Shown piece by piece: positions 23,485-48,811 of a DNA stretch of 64,000 nt. The stretch comes from Sinomonas sp. ASV322 (lineage in GTDB: Bacteria; Actinomycetota; Actinomycetes; Actinomycetales; Micrococcaceae). Under the pieces are notes generated by a model. It was not told the origin of the DNA. It saw only the letters and a program-made list of their open reading frames with translations, and made no database searches. A program made the position numbers and the translations under genes. The number at the start of each line of letters is the position of its first letter. The first letter of the stretch is position 1. The stretch lies in contig NZ_JAVFJJ010000018.1 in assembly GCF_030908245.1 (NCBI RefSeq), forward strand, positions 1 to 64,000, in the 5' to 3' direction.

Positions 23485-23491
23485 GGCGCCT

Positions 23492-28771: not shown

Positions 28772-28774
28772 GCG

Positions 28775-28830: not shown

Positions 28831-28882
28831 TGTTACGGGCGCCCTCGACCAGCCGTCGGGGCGGCGCCTAAGGTCGAGTCCA

Positions 28883-28985: not shown

Positions 28986-29035
28986 AGTACGGCGCCCGTC
29001 AAGGGCGTCCGGTGGGGAATGCCGAGGGACAGCCG

Positions 29036-29521: not shown

Positions 29522-29729
29522 CCTTCACCGCCCTGTAGCGCGCCGAGCCCGCCGCCCCGGTCGGAGGCGCCTCACGTCCGGGCGCGGCGGCCTCGGCCCG
29601 CCCTTCTCGAACCCACACCCCCTACCTCGAACTACCTCTTTCACGCTGCGCGCGGACTGCCCATCGGCCACTTCGACGCGCGCTCCACACGGCTGCCTTC
29701 GTGCGCCGCAGAACCCCTAGGAAAGCCCC

Positions 29730-30740: not shown

Positions 30741-30743
30741 GAC

Positions 30744-32529: not shown

Positions 32530-32587
32530 CCCACCGCTCCACCACCCTGCCCACCCTCGCCGCCTCAATCACGCAAAGGACCCCGAC

Positions 32588-33520: not shown

Positions 33521-34845
33521 CCGTGGCCCGCAAACTTCATCTGAACGCGTTCCTCATGAGCACGGGCCACCACGAGGCGTCGTGGCGGCTCCCCGAGAGC
33601 GATCCCCACGCTGGGACAAGCCTCGCGCACTTCACGCGGCTCGCGCAGACCGCTGAGCGCGGCAAGCTCGACTCCGTGTTCTTCGCAGACTCCCCCGTGC
33701 TGTGGGGATCGGTCGAGCGGCGGCCCGTGAGCGCCGTCGAGCCGACCGTACTGCTCGCCGCGCTCGCGGCAGCCACCGAGCGAATCGGGCTCATTGCGAC
33801 GGCATCGACAAGCTACAACTCGCCCTACAACCTCGCGCGGCGCTTCGCGTCAATCGACCACCTTTCCGGGGGCCGCGCCGGGTGGAACGTCGTGACGACG
33901 GCGGGGGCCGACGCCGCGCGGAACTTCGGCCTCGACGACCAGCCCCTTCACCGCTACCGGTACGAGCGCGCCGCCGAGTTCCTCGATGTCGCCTTCAAGC
34001 TGTGGGACTCGTGGGACGACGACGCGATCCTCGCCGACAAGGCGGCCGGGGTGTGGGCGGACGAGGGGCGGGTTCACGCCGTCGACCATTCCGGACCGCA
34101 CTTCTCGGTGCGTGGCCCGCTCGACATCCCTCGCTCTCCGCAGGCCCACCCGGTCATCGTCCAGGCGGGATCCTCGGAGGACGGCAAGGATCTCGCGGCG
34201 CGCTATGCCGAGGCCGTGTTCACGGCGCAGCAGACCCTTGAAGAAGCACAGGCGTTCTACGAGGATCTGAAGGCTCGGACCGTGGCCGCAGGGCGCGATC
34301 CAGACTCGATCAAGATCCTGCCGGGCATCGTCCCGGTGCTCGGCGGGACCGAGGCCGAGGCGCTGCGCCGCGAGCGCGAGCTCGACGAGCTCATCCGGCC
34401 GGAGTACGCGCGGATCGAGCTTGCTCGGACCCTTGGCGTGGCGCCCGAGGAACTCCCGCTCGACCGGGAGCTGCCTGCCGATCTCCCGGACGAGGACGAG
34501 ATCGAGGGCGCCAAGAGCCGCTACACGCTCATCGTGGAGTTGGCCAGGCGCGAACGGCTCACGGTGCGCGAGCTCATCGGGCGCCTCGGCGGGGGCCGCG
34601 GCCACCGGACGTTCGCCGGCACGCCCGAGCAGGTCGCCGACGCGATCGAATCGTGGTTCGTCGCGGGGGCCGCAGACGGGTTCAACATCATGCCGGCCGC
34701 GCTCCCCTCAGGGCTCGACGAGTTCGTTGACCACGTGGTGCCGCTGCTTCAGGCCCGTGGCCTGTTCCGCGAGGAGTACACCGGCACGACGCTGCGCGAG
34801 CACTACGGCCTGGGGCGTCCGGCCAGCCGGCTCACAGCGGTGTAG
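33517..34845 (+). CDS. FMN-dependent monooxygenase, NtaA/SnaA/DszA family
   Basis: The 442-residue luciferase-like protein has the NtaA/SnaA/SoxA features: LNAFLMSTGHHEASWRLPES at the start, HFTRLAQTAERGKLDSVFFA, the motif NLARRFASIDHLSGGRAGWN and VTTAGADAARNFG. It uses FMNH2 from a partner reductase to oxidise compounds such as sulfones or N-acetylated S-substituted cysteines. The start ATG overlaps the TauD-like stop. It closes the plus-strand unit begun by the riboswitch. Confidence 0.88.
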   Translation: MTVARKLHLNAFLMSTGHHEASWRLPESDPHAGTSLAHFTRLAQTAERGKLDSVFFADSPVLWGSVERRPVSAVEPTVLLAALAAATERIGLIATASTSYNSPYNLARRFASIDHLSGGRAGWNVVTTAGADAARNFGLDDQPLHRYRYERAAEFLDVAFKLWDSWDDDAILADKAAGVWADEGRVHAVDHSGPHFSVRGPLDIPRSPQAHPVIVQAGSSEDGKDLAARYAEAVFTAQQTLEEAQAFYEDLKARTVAAGRDPDSIKILPGIVPVLGGTEAEALRRERELDELIRPEYARIELARTLGVAPEELPLDRELPADLPDEDEIEGAKSRYTLIVELARRERLTVRELIGRLGGGRGHRTFAGTPEQVADAIESWFVAGAADGFNIMPAALPSGLDEFVDHVVPLLQARGLFREEYTGTTLREHYGLGRPASRLTAV

Positions 34846-34855
34846 CACCCCTCAC

Positions 34856-34904
34856 ACGCCGCGCCCCCGACTGGTGGATTCTCCAACCGGTGGGGGCGCG
34901 GCGT
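34856..34904 (+). terminator. terminator hairpin after the monooxygenase
   Basis: ACGCCGCGCCCCC (34856-34868) pairs perfectly with GGGGGCGCGGCGT (34892-34904), followed by TT. It starts 10 nt after the stop codon. Confidence 0.75.
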
Positions 34905-35045
34905 TTCGCGCGTCACGTCGGCGCCGGGTTCCCCAGTTCTTCCGCCGGGTTCCCCGATTTCTGTGTCGTTGTCTGAGCTGAGTCTCGCGTGCGTCCCCGG
35001 TATTCCGCGGAAGGGCGCGGCGTCGTCGTCGGCCGTGCCCTAGAA

Positions 35046-35160
35046 GCTGGGGAACCCGGCGCCGAAGGCGGGGAGTCCGGCGCGGAAGGCGGGGAGTCCG
35101 GCGCCGAAGGCGGGGAGCCCGGCGCGGAACGTGGGCAACTTGGCGCGGAAGCCGAGGAGG
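35046..35160. repeat. 21-bp degenerate tandem repeats, CTGGGGAACCCGGCGCCGA type
   Basis: Five or six head-to-tail copies of a roughly 21-bp unit (CTGGGGAACCCGGCGCCGAA, CGGGGAGTCCGGCGCGGAAG and variants) fill the 3' side of the GNAT gene. The 343-bp gap 34846-35188 contains the terminator and this array and no gene. Similar units occur at 48600-48750 and 56950-57140. Confidence 0.75.
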
Positions 35161-35188
35161 TCAGACCGGCAGAGCCGCTCGCGCTGCC

Positions 35189-35704
35189 TCAGCCCAGGTG
35201 CTTCTCGAACGCGAGGTGACCGAGTTCCTCGGGATCCGCGTCGAGGTCGAAGAGCGGCGTGTACCCCGCCGCGAGGTACAAGGCGACGGCCTCGGGCTGC
35301 CGCGGGCCCGTCGTGAGGTAGAGGCGGGAGTAGCCGCGCTTCGCGGCCTCGGCCTCGAGCGCGCCGAGAACCACGCGGGCGAGGCCGCGACGCCGATGTT
35401 CGGGGTGCGTCCAGATCCGCTTGAGCTCCGCGGTCCGCGCATCGAAGCGCCTGAAGGCCCCACCCGCGACCGATGTCCCCGCCTCGCGCACCATGAGGAA
35501 CGCCCCGTGCGGCGGGGCGAAGTCCTCGGCCGGGAAGCGTGCGAGCTCGTTCGTCGCCCCGCCGTACCGGTCGCCGTAGCGAGCCGTGTACTCCTCGAGG
35601 AGGCCCGAGAGCAAGGGCGCGACGCGGGGATCGCCGAGCCGCAGCGGCAGGATCGTGTGGGCGGCCGACGGCGACTGGGCGGCTTGCGTGGACGGGCTGG
35701 TCAC
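35189..35704 (-). CDS. GNAT family N-acetyltransferase
   Basis: The 171-residue protein has the acetyl-CoA-binding motif of the family (RIWTHPEHRRRGLARVVLGA, about residues 96-115) and the C-terminal QPEAVALYLAAGYTPLF. The start is a GTG at 35704 preceded by GAAAGGA. In this sulfur context it may N-acetylate an S-substituted cysteine, like YtmI/SnaA of Bacillus, but the sequence alone does not prove the substrate. It is co-directional with, and 20 bp after, the FAD/NAD(P)-binding gene. Confidence 0.82.
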   Translation of the reverse strand: MTSPSTQAAQSPSAAHTILPLRLGDPRVAPLLSGLLEEYTARYGDRYGGATNELARFPAEDFAPPHGAFLMVREAGTSVAGGAFRRFDARTAELKRIWTHPEHRRRGLARVVLGALEAEAAKRGYSRLYLTTGPRQPEAVALYLAAGYTPLFDLDADPEELGHLAFEKHLG

Positions 35705-35724
35705 AGGGGGTCCTTTCGGGAGGG

Positions 35725-37668
35725 TCAGCCCGCGAGGCTGTGCACGAGGGCGACGGCGGATTCGATCCGGCCGAGGGGTTCGGACGTGAGCTGGGCAAGG
35801 ACGCGCCGCGCGAGCGCGTCGGTCTCCCGGAACGGCGCGGCATTGCTCTGGGGGCGTGCGAAGGCGCCGGCCCCCCAGCCCGTCGTCCCCGCCCCAACGG
35901 CGAAGAGCCAGCCGGAAGCGGTGCCGAGGACCCGGGCGTCGTCGCCGGTACGGAGGCGACCGGCCAGGTCCGCGCGCGCGAGGCCGTCGGCGGCGAGAGA
36001 GCGCAGCACGGGGTTGGCCGATCCCGCGAGAGCGGGCCCGGGAAGGCGGGCCTCGACGAACGCGCTCGCTTCCGCGGCCACGGCGCCGCCCGCGGCGCGT
36101 GCCCGGAACATGCCCGTCGACTCGTCCGCCTCGACCCGCAGGTCTGGCCCGAGGAACTGCACGAGGCCAGCCCGTTCGAGGGCGAGGAGTTCGCGAAGCC
36201 GCCGAGGCGGGGGGCCGGAGTCCACGAAGCTGAAGAAGCCGTGCCACCACCCGCACACGATCTCGCGCGATTCCGGCGAGAGCCGATCAAGTGGCACGAG
36301 CCGACCGAGATCCATGTAGGCACGCAGGAGGCCGAGGAACAGACCCAGCGTCTCGGTGCGGTCCCCCGAGTCGCGCAGCCGCAGGTCCTCGCGGACGTGG
36401 CGTACGACGGCGTCGTGCACCTCCGCTGCCGCTCCCGAGAGGCCCTCGAGGGGCCGGTCGAGGCGCGCGAGGTCGAGGCGGTCCGCGGCGACGGGGACGG
36501 CGGAGCGGACGAGGGCGTCGAGCGCGGCTCGAGAGGATCGGGCCGCGACCCCGAACCGGGCCGAGAACTCGGCCCAGGGAACCCTCGCCCGCTCGGGGTA
36601 GCCCGTGAACAGCTCGCGGTAGTACGCGTACTCGACGTCCTTCGCGATGAGCGGCCACAGCTCGCCCACGAAATCGATCTCGCCGCGGCGCGCAAGCAGC
36701 GGCGCGACGGCCTGCTCCGTGAGGAACCGCTGAGGCCCGGGCTCGTCCCCGCGCAGAGGTCCGCGCGCCTTCGAATGGTAGGGCACGCCGCGCCGTGATC
36801 CGGCTAGGAGGCGCGGCTCGCGGCCCGACCGCACGTACGTCAGCGCTCCCTCCTCGGGACCCGCAGCGTGGTCGGGCACGAAGCGCCCTCCGCGCCCCTC
36901 GAACAGCAGCACCATGAGGTCGACGAACGCGAGGCCGAGGCCTGAGACGATCACATCGGCTCCCGGTGCGAGGCCGGTGAGGTCGGCGTCGGTCGTGTAG
37001 TCCGGCGGGACGTAGGCAGTACCGTGCCGGAGCGCAAAGTCGGCAAGAGCGGACGACGACGGCGACGGCACCGCATCCGTGTGCCCGAGGGCGAGGACGA
37101 CGGCGTCTGCCGCGAGCGAGTGCCCCGAGGCGAGGTGCACGCGCGCCGGCCTGCCACGACCCGGCCGAGCCTCGACCTGCACCGCCGTGTCACGGTGCAC
37201 GGTGACCGGAACTCCCGCGCGCCCCAGCGCAGCGACAGCCCGGCGGAAGAACCACTCGAGGTACAGCCCCTGGAGGCGGCGCGTCGGGAACGAGTCTGCC
37301 GCGAGGCCCCGCGCCTCGGCTGCGAGCTCGGGGGCGGCGTCGAGCGCGCGCCGCAGCTCGGCGTCGTCCGCAAGGAAGGTGCCGGGCCCGCTCACGGCGG
37401 CGGCCCACTCGACGAGGCTCGGACCGTCGACGACGGGCCCCTCGCAGTCGACGGACGCATCGGTGAACGCCGTGACATCAGCCGCGCGAGAGTTGAGAGC
37501 GAGGAGCGGGGATTGATGCTGCCGCCAGATGCGCCCAGATCCAGGGGCGTGGGGCTCGACGACGTGGATCTCGAGGGTGCCCGACGCCGGGAGGTTCGCG
37601 GCCAGCCGTTCGAGGAGCATGGCGGCGCGGGGCCCTCCCCCGACGACGGCGAGAACAGCTGGCTGCAC
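35725..37668 (-). CDS. FAD/NAD(P)-binding protein
   Basis: The 647-residue protein has an N-terminal dinucleotide-binding glycine motif (LAVVGGGPRAAMLLERLAAN) and a second NAD(P)-type region (ADAVVLALGHTD, VIVSGLGLAFVDLMVLLF), as in the large actinobacterial FAD_NAD-binding_9 proteins. The C terminus (TASGWLFAVGAGTTGWGAGA) is typical of the group. The GTG start at 37668 follows GAGAGGGGGACC. The function is unknown; the neighbours suggest an oxidoreductase or N-hydroxylase-like step in organosulfur metabolism. Confidence 0.78.
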   Translation of the reverse strand: MQPAVLAVVGGGPRAAMLLERLAANLPASGTLEIHVVEPHAPGSGRIWRQHQSPLLALNSRAADVTAFTDASVDCEGPVVDGPSLVEWAAAVSGPGTFLADDAELRRALDAAPELAAEARGLAADSFPTRRLQGLYLEWFFRRAVAALGRAGVPVTVHRDTAVQVEARPGRGRPARVHLASGHSLAADAVVLALGHTDAVPSPSSSALADFALRHGTAYVPPDYTTDADLTGLAPGADVIVSGLGLAFVDLMVLLFEGRGGRFVPDHAAGPEEGALTYVRSGREPRLLAGSRRGVPYHSKARGPLRGDEPGPQRFLTEQAVAPLLARRGEIDFVGELWPLIAKDVEYAYYRELFTGYPERARVPWAEFSARFGVAARSSRAALDALVRSAVPVAADRLDLARLDRPLEGLSGAAAEVHDAVVRHVREDLRLRDSGDRTETLGLFLGLLRAYMDLGRLVPLDRLSPESREIVCGWWHGFFSFVDSGPPPRRLRELLALERAGLVQFLGPDLRVEADESTGMFRARAAGGAVAAEASAFVEARLPGPALAGSANPVLRSLAADGLARADLAGRLRTGDDARVLGTASGWLFAVGAGTTGWGAGAFARPQSNAAPFRETDALARRVLAQLTSEPLGRIESAVALVHSLAG

Positions 37669-37804
37669 GACGGTCCCCCTCTCACGGCCGACCCGCGCGG
37701 GCCGTTGAGCAGCCACGGTAGGCCTCCGCCTCCGGGTCTTCCACCGCCCTGCCACACGCCGTCACGGCCCGTCGCACAGGGTCACCATGACGTCGTATTT
37801 CTGA

Positions 37805-37820
37805 ACGTGACGCTTCACGT
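37805..37820. promoter_or_regulatory. perfect palindrome in the divergent promoter region
   Basis: ACGTGA-CGCT-TCACGT is a perfect 6-4-6 inverted repeat between the divergent FAD/NAD(P)-binding gene and the amino-acid permease gene. It is a good candidate operator for a regulator of both units; the protein is not encoded nearby. Confidence 0.5.
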
Positions 37821-37919
37821 CTTTGGGTGACGCCGCGCAACGGGTGCGTTGAGAGGCCCCAGAGGCACTCCTAGATTGAGGACCACTCCCGCCCGCCCAC
37901 TCGCCGAAAGAGAGCTCCC

Positions 37920-38885
37920 ATGTCCGCCGCATCATCGACCGCCGGCGCCGTTGTGCCAGCGTGGCCGCGAGCCGCCGGACGGCCCGACTACGCGTCCTAC
38001 GCCGTCGTCCCCGCCCGCCACCCGTGGCGCTGGGCGGGCACCGCCGTCGTCGCCCTCGTGACGGCCGCCATCATCTGGAGCCTCGCGACGAACCCCCGCT
38101 GGGAGTGGGGCGTCGTCGCCCAGTGGTTCACGGCCCAGTCCGTGCTCACGGGCCTCGCCGAGACGCTCAAGCTCACCGTGGTCGCGGGGACGCTCGGATT
38201 CCTCCTCGGCTTCGTCCTCGCGCTCATGCGGCTCTCGTCGTCGCCGCTCCTCGTAGGTGTCGCGTGGACGTTCTCGTGGATCTTCCGCTCGACTCCGCTC
38301 CTCGTCCAGCTCCTGCTCTGGTACAACCTCGGCTACCTGTACGAGAAGATCAGCCTCGGCATCCCGTTCACGGACGTGCGGTTCTTCGAGGCGCCTACCA
38401 CGACGCTCATCAGCCAGTTCGCGGCCGCGGTCCTCGGCCTCACGCTCAACCAGGCCGCGTACTCCGCGGAGATCATCCGTGGCGGGATCCTCTCCGTGGA
38501 CCACGGTCAGCTCGAAGCCGCGGCCGCCCTCGGCATTCCGGCGTGGCGGCGTTCGACCCGGATCGTTCTCCCGCAGGCCATGCGGGCGATCCTCCCGACG
38601 GCGTTCAACGAGATCATCGGGCTCGTGAAGGGCACGTCGATCGTGTATGTCCTCGCGTACTCGGAGCTGTTCTACACCGTGCAGGTCATCTACAACCGCA
38701 CCCAGCAGGTCCTCCCGCTCCTGCTCGTCGCGACGGTCTGGTATGTCGTCATCACGTCCGTGCTGAGCGTCGCCCAGTACTACATCGAGCGCCACTTCTC
38801 GAAGGGCGCCGTGCGGACGCTCCCGCCGACGCCGCTGCAGCGGGCGCGGGCGTTCTTCTCGGTGCACGCCAAGGGGATCCGATGA
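37920..38885 (+). CDS. polar amino-acid ABC transporter permease
   Basis: The 321-residue HisMQ-type permease has a 40-residue N-terminal extension and then about five helices, with the conserved segments [35 protein letters not shown] and [22 protein letters not shown]. The last is the family loop that contacts the ATPase. It fits an importer for cystine or a related sulfur amino acid. Its stop overlaps the ATPase start (ATGA at 38882-38885). Confidence 0.88.
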
Positions 38886-39664
38886 CGCGCGGGCTCGTCG
38901 AGATCGTCGACGTCCGCAAGTCCTTCGGAACCCACGAAGTCCTCAAGGGCGTCTCGCTCACAGTTCAGCCGGGCGAGGTCGTCGTCGTCCTGGGACCCTC
39001 CGGCTCGGGGAAGTCGACGCTCCTCCGGACGATCAATCACCTCGAGAGGGTCGACGGCGGGTACGTCGCCGTCGACGGCGAGGTCGTGGGCTACCGCCCG
39101 TCCCGGGGGAAGCTGCACGAGCTCCGCGAGCACGAGGTACTCAAGCAGCGGTCCGAGATCGGCTTCGTGTTCCAGGCGTTCAACCTCTTCCCGCACCTCA
39201 CCGCGCTCGAGAACATCGCAGAAGCGCTGGTCTACGCTCAGCGCAGGCCCAAGATCGAGGCCCGGAAGCGGGCGCTCGAGCTGCTCGGCCGCGTGGGCCT
39301 CGTCGAGCGCTCGCAGGCCTACCCACGCCAGCTTTCCGGCGGGCAGCAGCAGCGCGTCGCGATCGCACGCGCCCTCGCCCTCGATCCGAAGGTCGTGCTG
39401 TTCGACGAGCCCACGTCCGCCCTCGATCCCGAGCTCGTCTCGGAGGTCCTGGACGTCATCCGCGACCTCGCCTCGTCCGGGACCACGCTCATCGTCGTGA
39501 CGCACGAGCTGGGCTTCGCGCGCGACGTCGCCGACCGCGTCGTGTTCATGGACGACGGCGTGATCGTCGAAGAGGGGACGCCCGCCCAGATCTTCGGGGC
39601 ACCCCGCGAGGACCGCACGCGCGCGTTCCTCTCCAGGTTCATCGAACCCACCTTCCAGATCTGA
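38882..39664 (+). CDS. amino-acid ABC transporter ATP-binding protein (GlnQ/TcyC type)
   Basis: The 260-residue ATPase has Walker [10 protein letters not shown], signature [15 protein letters not shown], and Walker [16 protein letters not shown] with [16 protein letters not shown]. All are characteristic of polar amino-acid importers. The true start is ATG 38882, overlapping the permease stop; a much longer open frame upstream is antisense to no gene and is only a shadow of the permease. Confidence 0.92.
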
Positions 39665-39744
39665 CGGCCAGCTTGGCAAGCAGTGGCCACTCGTTCGTCA
39701 AGAGGTGGCCGATTCTTGCCGTCCTATCCCCGAGAGGTTTTCCG

Positions 39745-40788
39745 TTGACTCCCGCACCCACCCACACCCCGCCTCGCACCCAGGCGAGCACGCCCCGACG
39801 CACGTTCGCCGCGCTGGCATTCTGGAAGACGCTCGCCGGGCCCGCCGCCGTCGTCCTTCTCGCGCTCGCCGGATGCGCCGACCCCGGCGCGCAGGCCGCG
39901 GGCGGCAGCGCGTCCGCGACGCCGTCGAACGGCGTCCACTACAACCTCGCCCCCGAGCAGAACCGGATCCGAGCGCAGAAGGACCCTGCGGCCGCAGCCA
40001 AGGTCCCCGCCGCGATCGGCGCGGACGGGAAGCTCACGGTTGCGACGACGGCCGGCTCGATCCCCCTGAGCTTCCAGGCGACCGACAACCGCACCATCAT
40101 CGGCTCCGAGATCGACATCGCGCAGCTCGTCGCGGACAAGCTCGGCCTCGAGCTCGACCTCCAGCAGACCTCATGGGAGAACTGGCCGCTCAAGACGCAG
40201 TCAGGCGCGTACGAGGCAGTGTTCTCGAACGTCGGGATCAATGCGGACCGGGCGAAGCTCTTCGACTTCTCGACCTACCGTGCCGCGTTCATGGGCTTCG
40301 AGGCGAAGAAGAGCGCCACGTTCACCGTCAATGGCGCCGACGACATCTCCGGCAGGAAGGTCGCCGTCGGCTCGGGGACGAACCAGGAGAAGATCCTCCT
40401 CGCGTGGAACAAGGACCTCGAATCGCGCGGCAAGGCACCCGCCGAGCTGCACTATTACGCCTCGGAGGCGGACACGATCCTCGCGCTCTCCTCGGCGCGG
40501 ATCGACCTCAACCTCGCGCCCTACCCCTCGGTCGTGTACCGGGCGGCGACCCGGGATGACCTCAAGGTGGTCGGCAAGGTCAACGCAGGATGGCCCAAGG
40601 AGACGCTCGTCGCGGCGACCACGAAGCGCGGCAACGGGCTCGCCGACGCCATCACGGCGGCGGTCAACTCGGCGATCGCCGACGGCTCGTACCGCAAGGT
40701 CCTGGACCGGTGGGGCCTTGGCGACGAGGCCGTGCAGAAGTCCGAGACCGTGACGTCCGAGACGCTCGCGCAGAAGGCAGGGAGCTGA
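39745..40788 (+). CDS. amino-acid ABC solute-binding lipoprotein, copy 1
   Basis: The 347-residue protein, if started at TTG 39745 behind GAGAGG, has a long basic N-terminal region and a lipobox (LLALAGC). The mature family-3 receptor has ADGKLTVATTAGSIPLSFQA and EIDIAQLVADKLGLELDLQQ. It closely resembles the second receptor at 44521-45564: both read C(A/S)DPGAQAA after the lipid Cys, both have SGTNQEKILL/SGTNQEAILV and both have VLDRWGL near the end. The start is uncertain; an ATG at 39673 is in frame. It serves the permease and ATPase just upstream. Confidence 0.83.
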   Translation: MTPAPTHTPPRTQASTPRRTFAALAFWKTLAGPAAVVLLALAGCADPGAQAAGGSASATPSNGVHYNLAPEQNRIRAQKDPAAAAKVPAAIGADGKLTVATTAGSIPLSFQATDNRTIIGSEIDIAQLVADKLGLELDLQQTSWENWPLKTQSGAYEAVFSNVGINADRAKLFDFSTYRAAFMGFEAKKSATFTVNGADDISGRKVAVGSGTNQEKILLAWNKDLESRGKAPAELHYYASEADTILALSSARIDLNLAPYPSVVYRAATRDDLKVVGKVNAGWPKETLVAATTKRGNGLADAITAAVNSAIADGSYRKVLDRWGLGDEAVQKSETVTSETLAQKAGS

Positions 40789-40789
40789 C

Positions 40790-41923
40790 ATGAAGTTCCA
40801 GCTGCTCGACATCATTCCGCACCACCGACATCCGCTCACGGGCGAGCGTGTGCGCCCCGCGGACCGGCTCGCCCAGGTCATCGAGACCGCGCAACGCGCG
40901 GAGGACCTCGGCTTCGACTCGTTCGCGGTCGGGGAACGGCACGCGGGCGAGTTCCTCTCGTCCTCTCCCGCGACGGTCCTGGCCGCCATCGCTGTCGCGA
41001 CCTCCCGCATCCGGCTCCACACGGGAGTCACGGTCCTGTCCGTCCTCGATCCGGTTCGAGCCGCCGAGGACTACGCGACCGTCGACCAGCTCTCGCGGGG
41101 CCGCCTCGAGCTCACGATCGGCAAGGGCAACGAGGTGCTCCAGTACCCGCTCTTCGGGCTCGACCTCGCCGATCAGTGGGACCTCCTCGCTGAGAAGCAC
41201 GAGCTCCTGCGTCGCCTCTGGCACGAGGAGGGCGTCACGTGGAGCGGCCGCTTCCGGCCGCCCCTCGACCAGCCGACGACGACGCTCCCGCGACCGTTTG
41301 CCGGCCCGCCGAGGATTTGGCACGGCAGTGCGACATCGATCGCGTCGGCGGCCCTCGCCGCGAAGTGGGGCGAGCCGCTCTTCACGGCCAACGCCATCCA
41401 GCCGCGCGAGAACTACAAGGTGCTCATCGACCACTGGCGTGAGCAGTACGCCGCCCACGGCCACGATCCGCGCCACGCGTATCTCGGCTCAGGCAGCGGC
41501 GCGGGCGGGATCTTCATCGCGGACACCACCCAGGAGGCGAAACGCCGCTTCGGTCCGGTCTACGAAGCACTGACGGCGGCTCGGGACGTTCCCGGGAACA
41601 ACACCCCGTTCCGGGACATCGACCACGCCGTGGCAGAGGGTCCGTCACTCGTCGGCAGCCCCGAGCAGATCGTGGACAAGATCCTCTCGTACCACGAGCT
41701 CTACGGGCATGACCTCCAATCCGTCTCGCTTCCGACCGTCCTCCCATTCGACGAGCAGCTCGCCGTGCTCGAGCGCTTCGCGCTCGACGTCGTCCCCGCC
41801 GTCCGAGCGGCGGCACCCACCACGCTGTGGGGCGACAGCGACCCGTATTCGGGGCGACCCGAAGCCGCACCGCCGGGGACAGAACCCCTGACACCACGCA
41901 CCCCGCAAGGAGCCGCATCATGA
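40790..41923 (+). CDS. luciferase-like FMN monooxygenase A
   Basis: This 377-residue LLM-class protein has the bacterial luciferase fold (AEDLGFDSFAVGERHAGEFL, SRIRLHTGVTVLSVLDPVRA, QLSRGRLELTIGKGNEV). It is of the type of Bacillus YtmO (CmoO) in size and style, though I cannot align the two here. The start is 1 nt after the binding-protein stop (TGACATG) and the stop overlaps the next gene. It should need reduced flavin from the reductase of the island. Confidence 0.82.
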   Translation: MKFQLLDIIPHHRHPLTGERVRPADRLAQVIETAQRAEDLGFDSFAVGERHAGEFLSSSPATVLAAIAVATSRIRLHTGVTVLSVLDPVRAAEDYATVDQLSRGRLELTIGKGNEVLQYPLFGLDLADQWDLLAEKHELLRRLWHEEGVTWSGRFRPPLDQPTTTLPRPFAGPPRIWHGSATSIASAALAAKWGEPLFTANAIQPRENYKVLIDHWREQYAAHGHDPRHAYLGSGSGAGGIFIADTTQEAKRRFGPVYEALTAARDVPGNNTPFRDIDHAVAEGPSLVGSPEQIVDKILSYHELYGHDLQSVSLPTVLPFDEQLAVLERFALDVVPAVRAAAPTTLWGDSDPYSGRPEAAPPGTEPLTPRTPQGAAS

Positions 41924-43035
41924 CCCGTCCCAACGGACTCATCGGCCTCGACCTGGACGACGCCCACCCCTCGGGGTGGCGCTTTGCCGCCGCCCCGCCG
42001 TCGTCCGCCTTCTCCCCCGAGCGCTCGCTGCGGCGGGTTCTCGACGCGGAGTCGGCGGGCTTCCACTTCGCGACGTTCTCCGACCCGACCCCCGCGCGCG
42101 GGGCTGACGAGCACGGGCGGCTCGACGCCGTCCAGCGCGCGGCCCACGCCGCCCCTCTCACGCGGACCATCGCGCTCGTGCCCGAGGTCGAGGCCACCTC
42201 GACCGAGCCGTTCCACGTCTCGACCCAGCTCGCAAGCCTCGACTACGTGAGCTACGGTCGCGCGGGGTGGCTCGTCGCCGTCGACGGCTCCGCCCCGCGG
42301 CACGCCGCCGTGGGGCGCGGCCCCCTCGCCGCCGACGACGCGTTCGTCGAGGCCGCCGACGCCGTCGAAGTGGCGCGGCGCCTGTGGGACACGTGGGAGG
42401 ACAACGCCGAGATCCGCGACGTCGCCGCCGGCCGGTACCTCGACGCGTCGCGCGTGCACTACGCCGAGTTCCGCGGGCGCAGCTTCTCCATCAAAGGGCC
42501 CTCGATCATCCCGCGTCCCCCGCAGGGCCAGCTCCCGGTGTTCGCCCCGTATGGGCAGGTTCCGCCGGCCCAGGCGGATGTGCTCCTCACCACCGCTCCG
42601 GCGTGGGACCTGCTCCTCGCCGAAGCAGCGCTCGTGCGCGACGAGAATCCGGAGCGTCTCGTCGTCGCCGAGCTCGATCTCGTCCTCGACGCTCGCGGCC
42701 AGGCGGGGGGCGAGCGGCTGGCGGCGCTCGACGCGACGTCCTCGTGGCAGTCTCCGCACGCACTCTTCGCGGGCGGCCCGGCCGAGCTCGCCGACTACCT
42801 CGGCGAGCTCCTCCGCGTGGCCGACGGCGTGCGGCTCCACCCGGCCGTGGTCGACGTCGACCTCCCCGAGCTCGCGCAGCTCGTCCTTCCCGAGCTGCGC
42901 CGACGCGGCCTTCTCGCCCCGACTGTCCCGGACACCTCGCTGCGGTATCGCCTCGGGCTGCGCCGGCCGCCCAGCCGCTATGCCGCCGGCCCCCTGCCCG
43001 TGTACCCGGCGCCCACCGCCGATTCCACGATCTGA
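41920..43035 (+). CDS. luciferase-like FMN monooxygenase B, divergent
   Basis: The 371-residue protein begins at ATG 41920, overlapping the previous stop. It has LLM-like features (LRRVLDAESAGFHFATFSDP, ASLDYVSYGRAGWLVAVDGS, RSFSIKGPSIIPRPPQGQLP) but is more divergent and is rich in Ala and Arg towards the end. It resembles a shortened NtaA-type monooxygenase. Whether it is catalytic alone or a partner of its neighbours is unclear. Confidence 0.75.
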   Translation: MTRPNGLIGLDLDDAHPSGWRFAAAPPSSAFSPERSLRRVLDAESAGFHFATFSDPTPARGADEHGRLDAVQRAAHAAPLTRTIALVPEVEATSTEPFHVSTQLASLDYVSYGRAGWLVAVDGSAPRHAAVGRGPLAADDAFVEAADAVEVARRLWDTWEDNAEIRDVAAGRYLDASRVHYAEFRGRSFSIKGPSIIPRPPQGQLPVFAPYGQVPPAQADVLLTTAPAWDLLLAEAALVRDENPERLVVAELDLVLDARGQAGGERLAALDATSSWQSPHALFAGGPAELADYLGELLRVADGVRLHPAVVDVDLPELAQLVLPELRRRGLLAPTVPDTSLRYRLGLRRPPSRYAAGPLPVYPAPTADSTI

Positions 43036-43045
43036 AAGGCGCCTC

Positions 43046-44431
43046 ATGAGCATCCATCCCGATTTCACACCGAGCCGTCAACTCCAGTTCGGCGTCTTCT
43101 TCCAGGGCGTCAACTCGGGCACCGTGTGGAAGCTGCCGCAGTCCGGCTCGCAGACGGACTTCCTGTCGTTCCGGCGCGTCGCGCAGACCGCCGAGCGCGG
43201 CCTCTTCGCGGCGTTCTTCCTCGGCGAGGGGCTTCGCCTCCGCGAGCACCTGGCGCGCGTCCACGAGCTCGACGTCGCCGGCCGCCCCGACTCCCAGACC
43301 CTGCTCGCCGCACTCGCCTCGGTGACGCATCGCATCGGCCTCGTCGCAACCCAGAACACGACGTACAACGACCCCGCCGACCTCGCCCACCGCCTCGCCT
43401 CGCTCGACCTTCTGTCCGGCGGGCGCGCGGCGTGGAACGTCGTGACGACGGACAACGCATGGACCGGCGCGAACTTCCGCCGCGGCGGCTACCTCGACCA
43501 CGCAGACCGCTACCGCCACGCCGAGGCCTTCGTCGAGGTCGCGCTCGAGATCTGGGATGGCTGGAGGCCCGGCGCACTCGCCTCGGATTCGCGCGGGAGT
43601 ACGACGGCGCGGCGCTGGCTTGCGCCCGACTCCGTCCGGTCCGTGCACCATGAGGGCCAGCACTACACCGTGGACTACGAGCCGCGCCTGCCGCGCAGCC
43701 CTCAGGGACGGCCCGTGCTGTTCCAGGCCGGGGATTCGCCCGAGGGTCGAGACTTTGCCGCGCGACGTGCCGACGTCATCTTCTCGGCGCATCCCGGGCT
43801 GGAGGACGCCATCGAATTCCGGCGCGACCTCGTGTCTCGGACCATCCGGGCCGGACGGCGCCCGGAGTCGCTCAAGATCATGCCCGCGAGCGAGTTCGTA
43901 CTCGCCGAGACGCCCGCGGCCGCGCGCGAGAAGCTCGCGTGGCTGCGTGAGCTCCAGATCGGTCCGCAGCAGGCGATCGCCTACCTCGAGCAGTTCTGGG
44001 GGCGCCCCCTCGGAGGCTACGACCCGGCGGGGCCGCTCCCCGACGTCGAGCCCGCCGTCGAGACGACCTCGGAGACCCGCGGGAGCGGCTTCCACGGCGC
44101 CAAGGCGCGCGAACTCGCTGCCTCGTGGAGGGCTGAAGCCGCTGAGAAGGGGTGGAGCATCCTCGAGTTCGTGCGCCAACGGAATGCGCGCGCGTCGCGG
44201 AGCTTCGTGGGCTCGTATTCCGAGGTGGCGGACCGACTCGCCGAGTACGCCCGGATCGGCGCCGTAGACGGCTTCAACGTCTCGCCGTGGATCGTGCCGA
44301 GCGGCCTCGACGACATCGTGGACCGCCTCGTGCCCGAACTCCAGTCGCGGGGCGTGTACCCGACCGAGTATGCCGGGACGACGCTGCGGGAACATCTCGG
44401 CCTCGAAGTCCCGGCGTCGAGCTGGGCGTGA
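43046..44431 (+). CDS. FMN monooxygenase C, NtaA/SnaA/YtnJ family
   Basis: The 461-residue protein has the NtaA/SnaA signatures (LQFGVFFQGVNSGTVWKLPQ, RRVAQTAERGLFAAFFLGEG, LAHRLASLDLLSGGRAAWNV, VTTDNAWTGANFRRGGYLDH). It is the type of Bacillus YtnJ (CmoJ), which oxidises N-acetyl-S-substituted cysteines. It is a paralogue of the monooxygenase at 33517-34845 (both end DGFN...P-G-LD..VD..VP..Q.RG). The ATG follows TCTGAAAGGCGCCTC, 10 bp after the previous gene. Confidence 0.88.
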   Translation: MSIHPDFTPSRQLQFGVFFQGVNSGTVWKLPQSGSQTDFLSFRRVAQTAERGLFAAFFLGEGLRLREHLARVHELDVAGRPDSQTLLAALASVTHRIGLVATQNTTYNDPADLAHRLASLDLLSGGRAAWNVVTTDNAWTGANFRRGGYLDHADRYRHAEAFVEVALEIWDGWRPGALASDSRGSTTARRWLAPDSVRSVHHEGQHYTVDYEPRLPRSPQGRPVLFQAGDSPEGRDFAARRADVIFSAHPGLEDAIEFRRDLVSRTIRAGRRPESLKIMPASEFVLAETPAAAREKLAWLRELQIGPQQAIAYLEQFWGRPLGGYDPAGPLPDVEPAVETTSETRGSGFHGAKARELAASWRAEAAEKGWSILEFVRQRNARASRSFVGSYSEVADRLAEYARIGAVDGFNVSPWIVPSGLDDIVDRLVPELQSRGVYPTEYAGTTLREHLGLEVPASSWA

Positions 44432-44438
44432 CGAAACC

Positions 44439-44514
44439 GGCCACGCGTCGGGAACGATCTGGCCACGCGTCCGCAAACGGGACGCGTGGCCAGATCGTTC
44501 CCGGACGCGTGGCC
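44439..44514. terminator. very long bidirectional terminator hairpin
   Basis: GGCCACGCGT-CG-GGAACGATCT-GGCCACGCGTCC (44439-44472) pairs with 44480-44514 over about 34 bp with a single one-base bulge and a 7-nt loop. It lies between convergent genes. The stem contains the 10-mer GGCCACGCGT twice per arm, so it is itself built of repeats. Confidence 0.85.
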
Positions 44515-44520
44515 AGGGTC

Positions 44521-45564
44521 TCAGCTCTTGGGCAGGCCCTGAGGGTTGAGGTCCGAGTGCGTGATCGCCTCCGACGTCAGCCCCCAACGATCGAGGACCT
44601 TCCCGTACGCGCCGGAGTCGATGAGCTTGTTGAGCGCGGCCTGCGCTGCCGCGGCGAGGCCGTTGCCCTTCTTTGTGGTGAATGCGATCTGCGCCGTGAG
44701 CGGCCATCCCCCGCTGAGCGTGCCGACTTGCTTGGTCTTGCCGTTCACCGCCGCCTTGTACGCGGCAGTGGCGTTGGGCCCGAAGGTCAGGTCTGCGCGC
44801 CCGGACTGGATCGCGAGCGACGACGCCGAATCGTCGTCGTAGTACTGGAACTGCACAGGAGCCAGGCCTGCCGCCTTGTTCTGCTGGTCCCACTTCACAA
44901 GGATTGCCTCCTGGTTGGTCCCCGAGCCGACGATGATCCGCTTGCCCGCGACGTCCTTGGGCTCCCTGACTGAGCTGATCGAAGAATCGCTCTTCGCGTA
45001 GAAGCCCAGAAGGTCATTGCGATAGGTCGCGAAATCGAACTTCTCCTTGCGCGCCTCCGTCACGGTCACGTTGGACAGGACGGCGTCGTATTTGCCCGAC
45101 TCAACGCCGAGTGGCCAGTCGGCCCACGCGACCGGGGCGACCTCGACGGTCAGACCGAGGGTCTGGCCGATCGCATAGGCGATGTCCACCTCGTTGCCGA
45201 TGGGCGTCTTGTTGTCCGTCGCATAGAGCGAAAGCGGCGCAGCCCACGGCGCTGTTGCGACCACGAGCTTGCCCCGGGCCCTCACGTCAGCGGGCACGAG
45301 GGCCGCTGACGCCTCGTCCTTGGGCGCCTGGAAACGGTCCTGCTGCGGCGAGAGGTTGAAGGCCTTTCCGGCCACAGTGGCCTGAGTCGTGGCGCTTGCG
45401 GCCTGCGCGCCGGGATCGCTGCACGCGCTCAGCCCGAGGAGGGCGACGGCGGCCAGCGCGACAGCCGGCAGTCCGGCGGCATACCCGGCTCGCGCCCGAC
45501 GGCGGGCAGCGGGAGGGCGATGAGTCCCACGTTCGGTGGGGCTGGCAGTGAGGGATCGTGTCAT
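44521..45564 (-). CDS. amino-acid ABC solute-binding lipoprotein, copy 2
   Basis: The 347-residue family-3 receptor starts at ATG 45564 behind GGAGACCCGAG. It has a long basic N-terminal segment, a hydrophobic core and lipobox LGLSAC. The mature sequence (RGKLVVATAPWAAPLSLYAT, EVDIAYAIGQTLGLTVEVAP, FDFATYRNDLLGFYAKSD) parallels the receptor at 39745-40788, so it likely feeds the same permease/ATPase with a different substrate. It stands alone on the minus strand, convergent with monooxygenase C. Confidence 0.83.
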   Translation of the reverse strand: MTRSLTASPTERGTHRPPAARRRARAGYAAGLPAVALAAVALLGLSACSDPGAQAASATTQATVAGKAFNLSPQQDRFQAPKDEASAALVPADVRARGKLVVATAPWAAPLSLYATDNKTPIGNEVDIAYAIGQTLGLTVEVAPVAWADWPLGVESGKYDAVLSNVTVTEARKEKFDFATYRNDLLGFYAKSDSSISSVREPKDVAGKRIIVGSGTNQEAILVKWDQQNKAAGLAPVQFQYYDDDSASSLAIQSGRADLTFGPNATAAYKAAVNGKTKQVGTLSGGWPLTAQIAFTTKKGNGLAAAAQAALNKLIDSGAYGKVLDRWGLTSEAITHSDLNPQGLPKS

Positions 45565-45751
45565 CTCGGGTCTCCGGGGCTCAGGCGGCCCTTGTGGGCC
45601 ACACGTGCCACCACTGAACACGCACCGAGGAGGGCCTCTCAAAGCGGCCGACGCACGCCGAAACGGGCGGAAAACCGCGGCAATGCAACGCAACGCACCG
45701 TCATCGAGCGTCTCGGGCCGTCACCCCCGCCAACATCCGCCCACGTCAGGC

Positions 45752-45822
45752 CGATAACGCGACGATAACGCGCGAATAACAATCCATTCGATGTACTAAC
45801 TACAGCGATTGGCAGTCAATCG
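45752..45822 (+). promoter_or_regulatory. 11-bp-phased repeats and palindrome upstream of peptide 1
   Basis: GATAAC occurs at 45753-45758 and 45764-45769, with AATAAC at 45775-45780: three repeats with exact 11-bp spacing, on one face of the helix, as in SARP activator sites. A TACTAA-like -10 candidate lies at 45794-45799. A perfect 6-5-6 palindrome, CGATTG-GCAGT-CAATCG, follows at 45806-45822. The 302-bp gap 45565-45866 has no gene. The activator is unknown; the SARP-like protein at 27246 is a candidate. Confidence 0.6.
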
Positions 45823-45866
45823 CCAACCACACCAAGAAAACCCCATCGATCAAGGAGTTGAGTCCC

Positions 45867-46058
45867 ATGACGAAGCTGACCATTACCGAACTGACCGCCG
45901 AGACCGTCGAGCTGCTTCCGGGCCGCGAGACCCTCGTGTTTGACGGCAACTGGGCGGGCATCCTCGCCTCGAACAGCTCGGTCGCCCTCAACGCGATGAC
46001 GATCGCCTCTGTCGCGAACAGCGGCGCCGGCCAGTTCATCACGGTCACGCAGGGCTGA
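45867..46058 (+). CDS. LLPxR peptide 1, putative ribosomal peptide precursor
   Basis: The 63-residue peptide starts at ATG 45867 behind CAAGGAG. It is a gap-free paralogue of peptides 2-4. The N-terminal part (residues 1-26) is acidic and ends in VELLPGRETLVFD; the rest is hydrophobic with Asn at 28, 36, 42 and 51. It has no Cys, no GG site and no signal peptide. Relative to the others it has G27, W29 and G31 in the middle. It is separated from the protease gene by a hairpin. The function is unknown; a peptide processed by the M50 protease is the leading idea. Confidence 0.8.
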   Translation: MTKLTITELTAETVELLPGRETLVFDGNWAGILASNSSVALNAMTIASVANSGAGQFITVTQG

Positions 46059-46073
46059 CCCAGCCGGGTGATT

Positions 46074-46107
46074 CCGGGGCGGCCACCTCCCAGCACGGCC
46101 GCCCCGG
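46074..46107 (+). terminator. hairpin between peptide 1 and the metalloprotease
   Basis: CCGGGGCGGCC (46074-46084) and GGCCGCCCCGG (46097-46107) make a perfect 11-bp stem with a 12-nt loop. It begins 15 nt after the peptide stop. It may partly stop transcription so that the peptide is made in excess over the protease. The rest of the 164-bp gap shows nothing. Confidence 0.65.
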
Positions 46108-46222
46108 AGACCCGCCGGGGATCGCCCGCACGGCGAGCGACGTCGTCGTCCGTCGCACGAGGCACCCACGGCCTCGCTTCCCCACCCACCTGGACACCCC
46201 ACCCACCTGAGGAGCCCCGACC

Positions 46223-47566
46223 ATGACGCAAGGACTCGCGATACCGACGCAGCGCTGGCAGCGCGTGGCCGGGATCGAGCTCTTGGGCCTCGTGTCCGGT
46301 TCCGGCCTCAACCGCTCGACGTACCTCGTGCGACGGGCGGATGGGCAGGTCGTCCAGCTGAGCGAGCTCCTCCACCGCATCGTCGAGGAGGCCGCCCGGC
46401 CGCTCGCATCGGGCGAGCTCGCCCGGCGCGTGAGCGCACGCTTCGGCAAGGAGCTCGACGTCGAAGGCCTCACCCTTCTCGCGGAGGGCAAGCTCGAACC
46501 GCTCGGGCTGCTTGAGCGTCCTGAGAGCGCCGCCGCGCCGCCCGCACCCACGGCCACTCCCCTGCTTGCCCTGCGGGCGAAGGCCACGATCGTGCCGAAA
46601 CGCGGCGTCGAACGCCTCTCCCGCCTCCTCCGTCCGCTCTACGCTCCCCCGATCGTCGTCGTGGCGTGCCTCGCGCTCGTTGCCCTCGACGTCCGGATCT
46701 TCGTCGCCTCGAATGCGGGCGCCGCCCTCGGCGACGTCCTCATGACGCCCGCGATGCTCCTCGGACTCTTCGTCCTCATGAGCGTCGGCGCGCTCGTCCA
46801 CGAAGTCGGCCACGCTACCGCGTGCCGCTACGGGGGCGCGACGCCAGGCGTCATCGGCGTCGGCCTGTACGTCGTCTTCCCGGCGTTCTTCACGGACGTC
46901 ACGGACTCGTACAGGCTCAGCCGGGCCGGACGCATCCGCACCGATCTCGGCGGGCTCTACTTCCACCTGTGGTGGGTACTCGCGATGGGCCTCGTGTACC
47001 TCGCGACGGACAGCCCGCTCCTGCTCCTGCTCGTCATCATGACCCAGCTGCAGATGGCGCAGCAGCTCCCGCCCGCGATCCGGCTCGACGGCTACTTCGT
47101 CCTCGCCGACCTCGCGGGAGTCCCAGACCTCTTCGCCCGCGTCGGGCCCGTGCTGCGGAGCCTCGTGCCCGGCCGCCCCGCGGATCCGAGGGTGAGCGAG
47201 CTCAGGCCCGTCTCACGGCTCATCGTGACGTGCTGGGTCCTCGTCGTCGTCCCATTCCTGGCCGGCGTCACCGTATGGCTCGCCATTAGCCTCCCCTACA
47301 TCCTCACGACGGCGTTCGAGGCGGTCCTCGCCCACGCGCGGCATCTCGCCCTCGCCCTCGCGACCGGACAGCCGATCGACGCCGTCCTCTCCCTCCTCGC
47401 GATCGGGATGCTCGCGCTTCCCGCGATCGGATCCGTGCTCATGCTCTCGCAGGCCCTCGGAACCATCGTGCGGGCCATCATCCGCCGGCTCACGCCGCGC
47501 CTCCCGAATCCCCTCCCGCGGCACATTGCGCCGCGCCCCAAGCTCCGGATCGGCCGACACGGCTGA
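46223..47566 (+). CDS. membrane M50-type peptide zinc metalloprotease with PqqD-like domain
   Basis: The 447-residue protein has an N-terminal soluble domain (about residues 15-98: YLVRRADGQVVQLSELLHRI ... GLTLLAEGKLEPLGLL) that looks like a PqqD/RiPP-recognition winged helix. Multiple transmembrane helices follow from about 143. The catalytic HEVGH lies at 193-197 within GALVHEVGHATACRYGG, and RLDGYFVLADLAGVPDL at 287-303 supplies the third zinc ligand (D289), as in YydH-like putative peptide zinc metalloproteases. It lies between peptide 1 and peptides 2-4, so it likely cleaves or exports them. The ATG follows CTGAGGAGCCCCGACC. Confidence 0.82.
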   Translation: MTQGLAIPTQRWQRVAGIELLGLVSGSGLNRSTYLVRRADGQVVQLSELLHRIVEEAARPLASGELARRVSARFGKELDVEGLTLLAEGKLEPLGLLERPESAAAPPAPTATPLLALRAKATIVPKRGVERLSRLLRPLYAPPIVVVACLALVALDVRIFVASNAGAALGDVLMTPAMLLGLFVLMSVGALVHEVGHATACRYGGATPGVIGVGLYVVFPAFFTDVTDSYRLSRAGRIRTDLGGLYFHLWWVLAMGLVYLATDSPLLLLLVIMTQLQMAQQLPPAIRLDGYFVLADLAGVPDLFARVGPVLRSLVPGRPADPRVSELRPVSRLIVTCWVLVVVPFLAGVTVWLAISLPYILTTAFEAVLAHARHLALALATGQPIDAVLSLLAIGMLALPAIGSVLMLSQALGTIVRAIIRRLTPRLPNPLPRHIAPRPKLRIGRHG

Positions 47567-47626
47567 ACCGGACCAGCTCTCACCCGTTGAGAGTCACCGA
47601 CCAGACCCTGAAAGGGGGTGAACATC

Positions 47627-47818
47627 ATGCAGAAGCTCACTATGGCCGACCTCGCCGCCGAGGACGTGGAGCTGCTCCCCGGACGCGAGACCCTCGTGTG
47701 GGACCTCAACGCCGCTCTCGTCGCCGCGACGAACGCCTCTTACGCCGTGAACGCGGCAACCGTGCTCTCGTCCGCGAACAGCGTGGCGCTCCAGGGAATC
47801 ACGGTCAACCAGCACTGA
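47627..47818 (+). CDS. LLPxR peptide 2, putative ribosomal peptide precursor
   Basis: This 63-residue paralogue starts at ATG 47627, 8 nt after an outstanding AAAGGGGG ribosome site; an in-frame GTG at 47618 is less likely. It has VELLPGRETLVWDLN and AVNAATVLSSANS, with Asn at the four shared positions. It lies 60 bp after the protease gene. It ends in QH, as does peptide 3. Confidence 0.8.
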   Translation: MQKLTMADLAAEDVELLPGRETLVWDLNAALVAATNASYAVNAATVLSSANSVALQGITVNQH

Positions 47819-47831
47819 TCGTGACGGCTGT

Positions 47832-47862
47832 CCCGGCTCGGGTCCCCCAGCTCCGGGCCGGG
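47832..47862 (+). terminator. weak hairpin after peptide 2
   Basis: CCCGGCTCGG (47832-47841) pairs with CCGGGCCGGG (47853-47862) with one G-U pair. It may attenuate transcription into peptide 3 or protect the upstream mRNA end. Confidence 0.4.
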
Positions 47863-47887
47863 CACCAAACCAACCCAGGAGGACATC

Positions 47888-48079
47888 ATGACGGCACTCA
47901 CTGCCGCGGACGTCGCCGTCGAGCATGCCGAGCTGCTTCCGCAGCGGGACACGATGCTCTTCGACATCAACGTCGCGCCCGTCGTCGCAGTCAACCTCGC
48001 GATCGCGGTCAACGCCGCGACGATCGGGTCGACTGCGAACGCTACCGCGCTCCAAATGGTCGGCGTGCTCCAGCACTGA
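47888..48079 (+). CDS. LLPxR peptide 3, divergent paralogue
   Basis: This 63-residue peptide starts at ATG 47888 behind CAGGAGGACATC. It is the most divergent copy (AELLPQRDTMLFDIN, with few Ser/Thr, and P31) but keeps every family-invariant position: L4, T5, E12, LLP, R20, T22, D26, N28, A30, A34, N36, A40, N42, A43, T45, S48, A50, N51, A54, Q56, V60 and Q62. The divergence with equal length suggests a distinct product or a partner peptide. Confidence 0.78.
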   Translation: MTALTAADVAVEHAELLPQRDTMLFDINVAPVVAVNLAIAVNAATIGSTANATALQMVGVLQH

Positions 48080-48203
48080 CCGCCACCGACGGACCGGGGC
48101 CCGGCGCCCTGCGGAGGGGAAACTCCCGCTCGGCGCCCGGACCGGCCCACCTCAACCAGCCACACCCCACGGCGCCGAGGCGCCACCACCCAAGGAGATC
48201 AAC

Positions 48204-48395
48204 ATGACCAAGCTCACCATCGCCGAACTGTCCGCCGAGACCGTCGACCTGCTCCCGGGCCGCGAGACGCTCCTCTTCGACCTCAACTCGGCTCTCATCG
48301 CCGCGCACAACGCCTCGTTCGCAGTCAACGCAGGGACCGTGCTCTCGGCCGCGAACAGCCTCGCGGTCCAGGGCGTGACGGTCACGCAGGCCTAA
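48204..48395 (+). CDS. LLPxR peptide 4, putative ribosomal peptide precursor
   Basis: This 63-residue paralogue starts at ATG 48204 behind CAAGGAGATCAAC. It is closest to peptides 1 and 2 (MTKLTIAELSAETVDLLPGR, AVNAGTVLSAANS). It ends in TQA. A strong hairpin begins 68 nt after its stop, so it is the last gene of the cluster. Confidence 0.8.
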   Translation: MTKLTIAELSAETVDLLPGRETLLFDLNSALIAAHNASFAVNAGTVLSAANSLAVQGVTVTQA

Positions 48396-48462
48396 GCGTT
48401 TTCGCACCCACCCAAACCGCCCTACCCCGGCGGCGTTCCTCCCCCTTGCGGCGCCGGACAGC

Positions 48463-48497
48463 AGGAGGGAGGCCCGGTTTCCCCGGGCCTCCCTCCT
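48463..48497 (+). terminator. 15-bp stem terminator of the peptide cluster
   Basis: AGGAGGGAGGCCCGG (48463-48477) pairs perfectly with CCGGGCCTCCCTCCT (48483-48497) around a 5-nt loop. Confidence 0.8.
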
Positions 48498-48502
48498 CAC
48501 GC

Positions 48503-48760: not shown

Positions 48761-48811
48761 GAGCCCTAGCGCGAGCTCCAGTGCCATCGCGGCGTCAGTG
48801 CCATCGCGGCG

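Follow-up and report, generated by a model that had tools for sequence, protein, structure and literature searches.

Leader-bearing, β-strand-like peptides paired with an M50 membrane protease in Sinomonas: a candidate system for the export of unmodified peptides

What does a soil bacterium make with four small leader-tagged peptide genes that adjoin the gene of a membrane protease with a leader-binding type of domain? The question is raised by a 64,000-nucleotide stretch of Sinomonas sp. ASV322 (contig NZ_JAVFJJ010000018.1, positions 1 to 64,000; hereafter the window), in which an original prediction, made from the letters alone, had seen a candidate new system of ribosomal peptides. We find a conserved peptide-protease pair, accompanied in Micrococcales by a SARP-family regulator and often by a protein with CxxC repeats; the peptides are modular, with a leader and a core, and the core is β-strand-like. 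Our preferred reading, to which we assign a probability of about 0.45, is that the locus carries out the regulated export of unmodified, leader-bearing β-strand peptides that would assemble outside the cell, probably together with the CxxC-repeat protein. The designation as a new RiPP (ribosomally synthesized and post-translationally modified peptide) is the part of the original prediction that finds no support, as it presumes modification and none is visible.

The four peptides lie around the protease gene as first described, each 63 residues long and aligning without a gap. They share 25 invariant positions, among them every one named in the original prediction, which had counted about 23, and their pairwise identities range from 29 to 44 of 63 residues; none matches a Pfam or NCBIfam model at its curated cut-off. 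Among 47 aligned peptides, the leader carries a net charge of -2 to -5 and the core a charge of zero in 37, with K, R, D and E together making up 0.7% of core residues. Gaps in this alignment fall mainly after residues 24-25, with a few near residues 2-8 and none in 26-62. Across core positions 28-62, even positions have an entropy of 0.62 bits and odd positions one of 2.50 bits, a difference reached by 0 of 100,000 permutations, and the leader is without such alternation (1.20 versus 1.31 bits). Conservation of alternate residues from residue 28 onward is the pattern expected of a β-strand. The acidic leader and the hydrophobic, Asn-spaced core of the original prediction hold as a description of the organization, in that the leader is acidic, the core is uncharged and cores are swapped between relatives; the account of the core was incomplete, since conserved and variable residues take turns in it as in a β-strand, and its sequence is similar to a CxxC-protein repeat.

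Peptide 3 represents a constant type, found exactly once in each of 24 Micrococcales loci (13 from Sinomonas, the window included, and 11 others) beside variable peptides; the pattern that defines this type was written after the sequences had been seen, and the window's row omits peptide 4, whose open frame exceeds the length filter. Pooled ratios of nonsynonymous to synonymous differences (pN/pS) in the variable peptides (seven pairs) are 0.22 for the leader, 0.18 for even and 0.74 for odd core positions; the corresponding values for the constant type (three pairs) are 0.38, 0.00 and 0.29. These ten pairs have species in common and cannot be treated as independent, and no positive selection is shown by ratios under 1; at the codon level, the ratios of the variable peptides indicate purifying selection on the leader and the even core positions. 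Conservation across genomes, together with this codon-level selection, rules out chance open reading frames (ORFs).

The same leader can precede a different core. In two loci (L126:9396-9716 and the same place in L127; L and G numbers are our handles for loci and genomes) it stands before an unrelated core rich in Asn, Asp, Gly and Ser, directly upstream of the protease gene. Among ten additional loci that have the protease but gave no peptide match, seven have a short upstream ORF with a leader recognizable by profile (E-value up to 0.51); the leader in L199 was seen by eye only, and L201 and L202 are without a leader ORF. Two kinds of small ORF are recorded separately: L193:4031-4309, upstream of the protease gene, has a leader-like start followed by an Arg/His-rich core, and L131:8607-8897 and L202:5763-6020 (MRIRKV.NK...) have a core-like stretch and no leader.

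The gene between peptides 1 and 2 encodes the membrane zinc protease that the original prediction had placed there, complete with HEVGH and RLDGY motifs, and its N-terminal domain is predicted to have the PqqD-like fold suspected at the outset. An AlphaFold2 model of the protease (31 sequences; mean predicted local distance difference test score, pLDDT, 84.3) contains a β3α3 domain at residues 19-91, for which the top Foldseek match in the PDB is PqqD (5sxy; probability 0.92, template modelling score 0.63 by target, E 0.83). No Foldseek match of this domain reaches E 0.001; lower in the ranking stand GdmN (ranks 2 and 3), which to our knowledge does not carry a PqqD-like domain, and MibB (4), TglHI (7) and MadB (20), which we take to carry one. 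A sequence search for solved relatives gave no convincing match. The best NCBIfam match of the protease is daptide_HExxH (NF041824; E 5.5e-27, 94.9 bits versus a cut-off of 300), and the epipeptide protease model NF058609 scores 46.4 bits against a cut-off of 225. By prediction and by motif, the protease would join a PqqD-like domain to a site-2 protease, as in daptides; in three loci (L121:10123-12480, L122:10243-12549 and L123:8467-11256) its frame continues into a ParA/MinD-like ATPase domain. Leader conservation, core exchange and the predicted PqqD fold would fit a leader that is recognized and removed, as in RiPPs.

Peptides and protease travel together. A profile of the four peptides matches 11 of 15 Sinomonas genomes (the window's own genome is included at each level), and the three named matching loci that were found are all from Sinomonas. 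A 47-row profile built from these matches detects peptides in 19 of 295 genomes of the family (Micrococcaceae), in 6 of 297 of the order (G375 and G401 on the strength of the leader alone) and in 12 of 396 of the phylum. The protease, sought at E 1e-20, is present in 36 of the 295 family genomes, including all 19 with peptides. This family search scored four candidates a genome, and copy counts are of the copies listed: at least 43 distinct ones, comprising 21 in peptide loci (19 short and two ATPase-fused) and 22 long forms, so that 21 of the 21 short or ATPase-fused copies listed lie in peptide loci. The protease gene is adjacent in 10 of the 12 phylum genomes with peptides and on another contig in G730; none was found for G573, whose peptides are on a 5.6-kb contig. 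The co-occurrence anticipated by the original prediction is thereby borne out, in 19 of 19 peptide genomes of the family and 11 of 12 of the phylum. Contig ends account for some of the loci seemingly without a protease: when the whole genomes were searched, seven of eight such genomes proved to have it (in G107 it was known before). Outlying matches comprise a weak protease match in G589 and a Streptomyces plasmid record with a weak match to peptide 4 (E 7e-3) and, by profile, a protease and a CxxC homologue. A tblastn search with the window CxxC protein at E 1e-5 returned no plasmid record and thus missed that one, and the protease search for phage records matched none. Scattered relatives have the set as well, often together with a protein of similar repeats that is probably secreted.

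That protein, the CxxC-repeat protein, has no Pfam or NCBIfam match at a curated cut-off in its window form and is probably secreted, because its N-terminus is hydrophobic by hydropathy. Its AlphaFold2 model (21 sequences; pLDDT 84.9, predicted template modelling score 0.78) consists mostly of strands, with seven of 11-15 residues in the repeat region, and many of its weak Foldseek matches are β-solenoids, including ice-binding proteins, FapC and CsgA; the repeats may form a solenoid or an antiparallel sheet. Profile alignment by hhalign pairs core residues 28-61 with CxxC residues 139-172 without a gap (E 1.1e-4); on rerunning, the score was 31.7, compared with at most 18.2 in 60 column shuffles, at most 26.2 in 60 alternation-preserving shuffles and 18.7 for the reversed core. 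The peptide profile also touched the CxxC repeat region, at E 0.27 in the window's own genome and at best 0.0005 in other genomes. At the level of sequence, the peptide core resembles one repeat of the CxxC protein, as a relative would.

The CxxC gene is present in 12 of 13 Sinomonas loci, counting one truncated copy and that of the window, and in 7 of 11 other Micrococcales loci. Apart from the window, its end lies within ~0.3 kb of peptide 1 in 10 of 12 Sinomonas loci and 1.7 kb away in L048; in L123 and L124 it is placed after the protease gene. Two of the other loci without it (L116, L125) end at a contig edge. Of 296 genomes sampled across the phylum, 16 match the CxxC protein, and 14 of these 16 (not G573 or G612) also have the protease. 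A second architecture, intact in 10 of 11 loci examined and reduced to its tail in L059, has the protease fused to a CxxC domain and preceded by a two-core precursor. Two side observations concern this gene: in L043 (11632-12084) it appears broken, with short matching pieces in different frames, and a lipoprotein-like ORF beside it in L132 (6166-6942) is conserved in three distant loci (L132, L137, L138).

The regulator belongs to the SARP family (Pfam BTAD, PF03704; E 4.3e-15, 56.8 bits versus a cut-off of 22.1) and has homologues in 13 of 13 Sinomonas peptide loci and 10 of 11 other Micrococcales loci. Its likely target is a triple direct repeat first seen in an alignment of eight Sinomonas loci, which has one match in the window and 0 in 100 shuffles. 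If the final base of each unit may be C or T, the repeat occurs 93-118 bp upstream of peptide 1 in 13 of 13 Sinomonas loci, including five outside that alignment, as well as before the second peptide gene of L048 and in L115, L117 (twice) and L121; of two solitary peptides, that of L045 has it upstream and that of L049 does not. The total is 20 matches in 32 loci versus 0 in 20 Markov shuffles of the set, with none found in L056-L059, L116, L118-L120 or L122-L127. Heptameric repeats with 4-bp spacers are described as typical SARP operators (PMC3367932), and we regard positions 45754-45780 as the probable SARP operator of peptide 1. No sigma-70-like promoters or terminators were found at 45600-48800. 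Not noticed in the original prediction were the regulator and CxxC genes at 27.2-28.8 kb, the triple repeat upstream of peptide 1, the period of two residues in the core and the division into constant and variable peptides.

We posit that the SARP activator binds the three repeats at their 11-bp spacing and would thereby turn on the peptide-protease genes. The acidic N-terminal leader would dock on the predicted PqqD-like domain of the M50 protease, which could cut near residues 23-27, a site proposed because it is the main internal stretch of length differences among homologues, and pass the core across the membrane. Leader-guided processing of the peptides by the protease is very likely. The released core, about 36 uncharged residues from Asn28, would be a strand-turn-strand unit with a conserved packing face made up of the even residues (N, A, S, Q, V/I) and a variable outer face made up of the odd ones. 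Freed cores could then stack on one another and on the multi-repeat CxxC protein, to give the cell surface a fibre or coat of β-sheet; the constant-type peptide, one a locus, would be the common building block, whose outer face the variable peptides alter. The joint assembly of core and CxxC protein is plausible at somewhat less than even odds. More doubtful, and offered tentatively, is the extension to a class of unmodified ribosomal peptides scattered over the phylum, in which a leader-reading intramembrane protease would free single β-strand units, one of them constant, that polymerize on a secreted protein of multiple repeats and vary in their outer faces; the variant of this class would be the repeat protein fused to the protease and accompanied by a two-core precursor.

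Several observations weigh against the export-and-assembly reading. The even/odd alternation slips at residues 43-46, and window peptide 1 differs from those of L042 and L043 by three changes at even and two at odd positions. The alignment of core and CxxC protein has an hhalign probability of just 56, and Foldseek matches of the CxxC model in the PDB are weak, none at E 0.001 or better and the best being UreD (0.01). The CxxC gene is missing in L050, L121 and L122 though the contig runs on, the peptide genomes G688, G694 and G747 have no CxxC match, and G612 has a CxxC protein (L163, G612:C617) and neither a peptide nor a protease match; our confidence in this reading is lower on account of the genomes that lack a CxxC gene. 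The solitary peptides (L045:9739-9927 and L049:9478-9675) have no protease nearby, and the cores of the widest relatives differ greatly, that of L193 being rich in Arg and His, so a fibre cannot be assumed for every member.

In the window the locus is split. Profiles of neighbouring genes place the SARP and CxxC genes before peptide 1 in Sinomonas relatives, and here they lie ~17 kb off; by blastn, 21534-28615 and 45740-48498 match parts of L042 that are just 251 bases apart, so ~17 kb lies between the locus halves in this genome (Table 1). This stretch encodes sulfonate/taurine-type ABC uptake, a TauD-like dioxygenase, a flavin reductase, three luciferase-like monooxygenases and amino-acid ABC genes. 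Clustering of ORFs of at least 100 residues from 37 loci showed the widely shared families to be those of the protease, the SARP and the CxxC protein. The remaining clusters reflect antisense shadows or synteny, apart from an ABC ATPase (window 22336-23484), which is shared by 8 of 37 loci and best matches importer-type families. Twenty window neighbours scanned against NCBIfam are transport, oxidoreductase, phosphatase, purine and unnamed genes. As originally reported, no modifying gene is visible nearby: no known RiPP-modifying family is among the matches listed for these 20 neighbours, and none is conserved in relatives over the 37 loci. Just past peptide 4, at 48515-48610, a tandem repeat with a GC-rich unit of ~16 bases is visible by eye.

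Table 1. Features of the split peptide-protease locus in the window
Feature	Coordinates	Strand	Remarks
SARP-family (BTAD) regulator	27246..27998	+	250 aa from an ATG that fits relatives; open frame from 27123
CxxC-repeat protein, probably secreted	28019..28771	+	250 aa; three ~33-aa repeats by eye, then two helices
~17 kb parting the locus halves, outside the system	28772..45739		blastn versus L042; left edge set at the end of the CxxC gene
Triple direct repeat, probable SARP operator of peptide 1	45754..45780	+	RTAAC every 11 bp; sole match in the window
Peptide 1, variable type	45867..46058	+	63 aa, stop included in coordinates; leader ~1-26, core 28-63
M50 membrane metalloprotease	46223..47566	+	447 aa; HEVGH 193-197, RLDGY 287-291
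PqqD-like domain of the protease (predicted)	46277..46495	+	residues 19-91; AlphaFold2: three strands, three helices; Foldseek: PqqD 5sxy
Peptide 2, variable type	47627..47818	+	63 aa
Peptide 3, constant type (INVAPVVAVNLAIAVNAATIGSTANA...)	47888..48079	+	63 aa; exactly one such in 24 of 24 Micrococcales loci
Peptide 4, variable type	48204..48395	+	63 aa

Could the locus belong to a system already described? Daptide loci (MpaP/DapP, NF041824; PMC10036551) resemble this one in that they occur in Actinomycetota, encode several short precursors each and have an intramembrane site-2 protease that carries a PqqD-like domain, and both leaders contain an acidic E-L motif. However, the ELExMEAP leader motif and the invariant C-terminal Thr described for daptides are not in the window peptides, which end in G, H, H and A, and the window protease stays far under the family cut-off. 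The modifying genes DapB, DapC, DapD and DapM are neither among the matches listed for the 20 neighbours nor widely conserved in relatives, and the window locus has the SARP and the CxxC-repeat protein instead. By these comparisons the locus is not a daptide one, and a divergent daptide cluster, a reading already largely refuted, has only a very slight chance of being correct. Some distant peptide relatives end in ST. Epipeptides (EpeP/YydH/LiaK, NF058609; PMC10885120) likewise have an M50 membrane protease, to which the cutting and export of a small peptide are ascribed, but their precursors differ, and no radical SAM epimerase is among the matches listed for the 20 neighbours or widely conserved. 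On the protease score and this radical SAM result, we reject epipeptide membership.

That the nearest named proteases are those of daptides and epipeptides suggests a second answer, in which the protease frees several membrane-active peptides that act together as secreted antimicrobials or haemolysin-like agents. Several peptides a locus with a changing outer face would suit this role, and SARP control is typical of antibiotic clusters. We nevertheless hold it unlikely: the uncharged core has the alternation of a β-strand, genes for export or immunity are not widely conserved, the ABC ATPase looks importer-type, and the related repeat in the larger CxxC protein is left unexplained. The Asn-spaced, alternating core also brings to mind proteusins such as polytheonamide, which have a long alternating Asn-rich core and a leader of another type than the window's; a true RiPP could be made here by a modifying enzyme encoded elsewhere in the genome, for example an epimerase generating an alternating D/L helix of the polytheonamide type. 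A PoyD-type epimerase model found no match in the genome, nor any in the control genomes. The three luciferase-like monooxygenases and the flavin reductase of the 17-kb stretch count in favour of such modification; an enzyme of the luciferase-like kind contributes to D-Ala formation in one daptide cluster (PMC12338566). L042, however, lacks the stretch at that place, and the finding that no RiPP-modifying family is among the matches listed for the 20 neighbours or conserved in relatives likewise makes a true RiPP improbable. Several variable paralogues and a regulator in one locus would also befit a pheromone system in which the peptides are short extracellular signals and the CxxC protein receives or carries them; a core that is long and conserved on its packing face, and the lack of a sensor kinase or receptor among the widely conserved neighbours, leave this the more improbable still.

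The export of unmodified, self-assembling peptides finds its nearest parallel in functional amyloids such as curli (CsgA/CsgB) and the chaplins, which consist of strand-turn-strand units rich in N, Q, S and A and have a multi-repeat partner. The window would share both features, and CsgA and FapC are among the weak structural matches of the CxxC protein. The differences are that each window peptide has one repeat, that a leader and protease replace the Sec signal and outer-membrane channel of those systems, and that the window fibre is predicted from the sequence pattern and AlphaFold2 strands.

A literature search, which did not cover supplements, found no publication on this peptide-protease system. 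If our reading is correct, the locus would represent an actinobacterial surface-fibre pathway built on RiPP-style leader recognition, giving access to precursor genes that belong to no named family and to a route towards bacterial β-fibres that can be tested. PqqD-like leader recognition has been known from the biosynthesis of modified peptides; in this system its role seems to lie in the export of unmodified β-strand peptides, in scattered Actinomycetota and under a regulator family known from antibiotic clusters.

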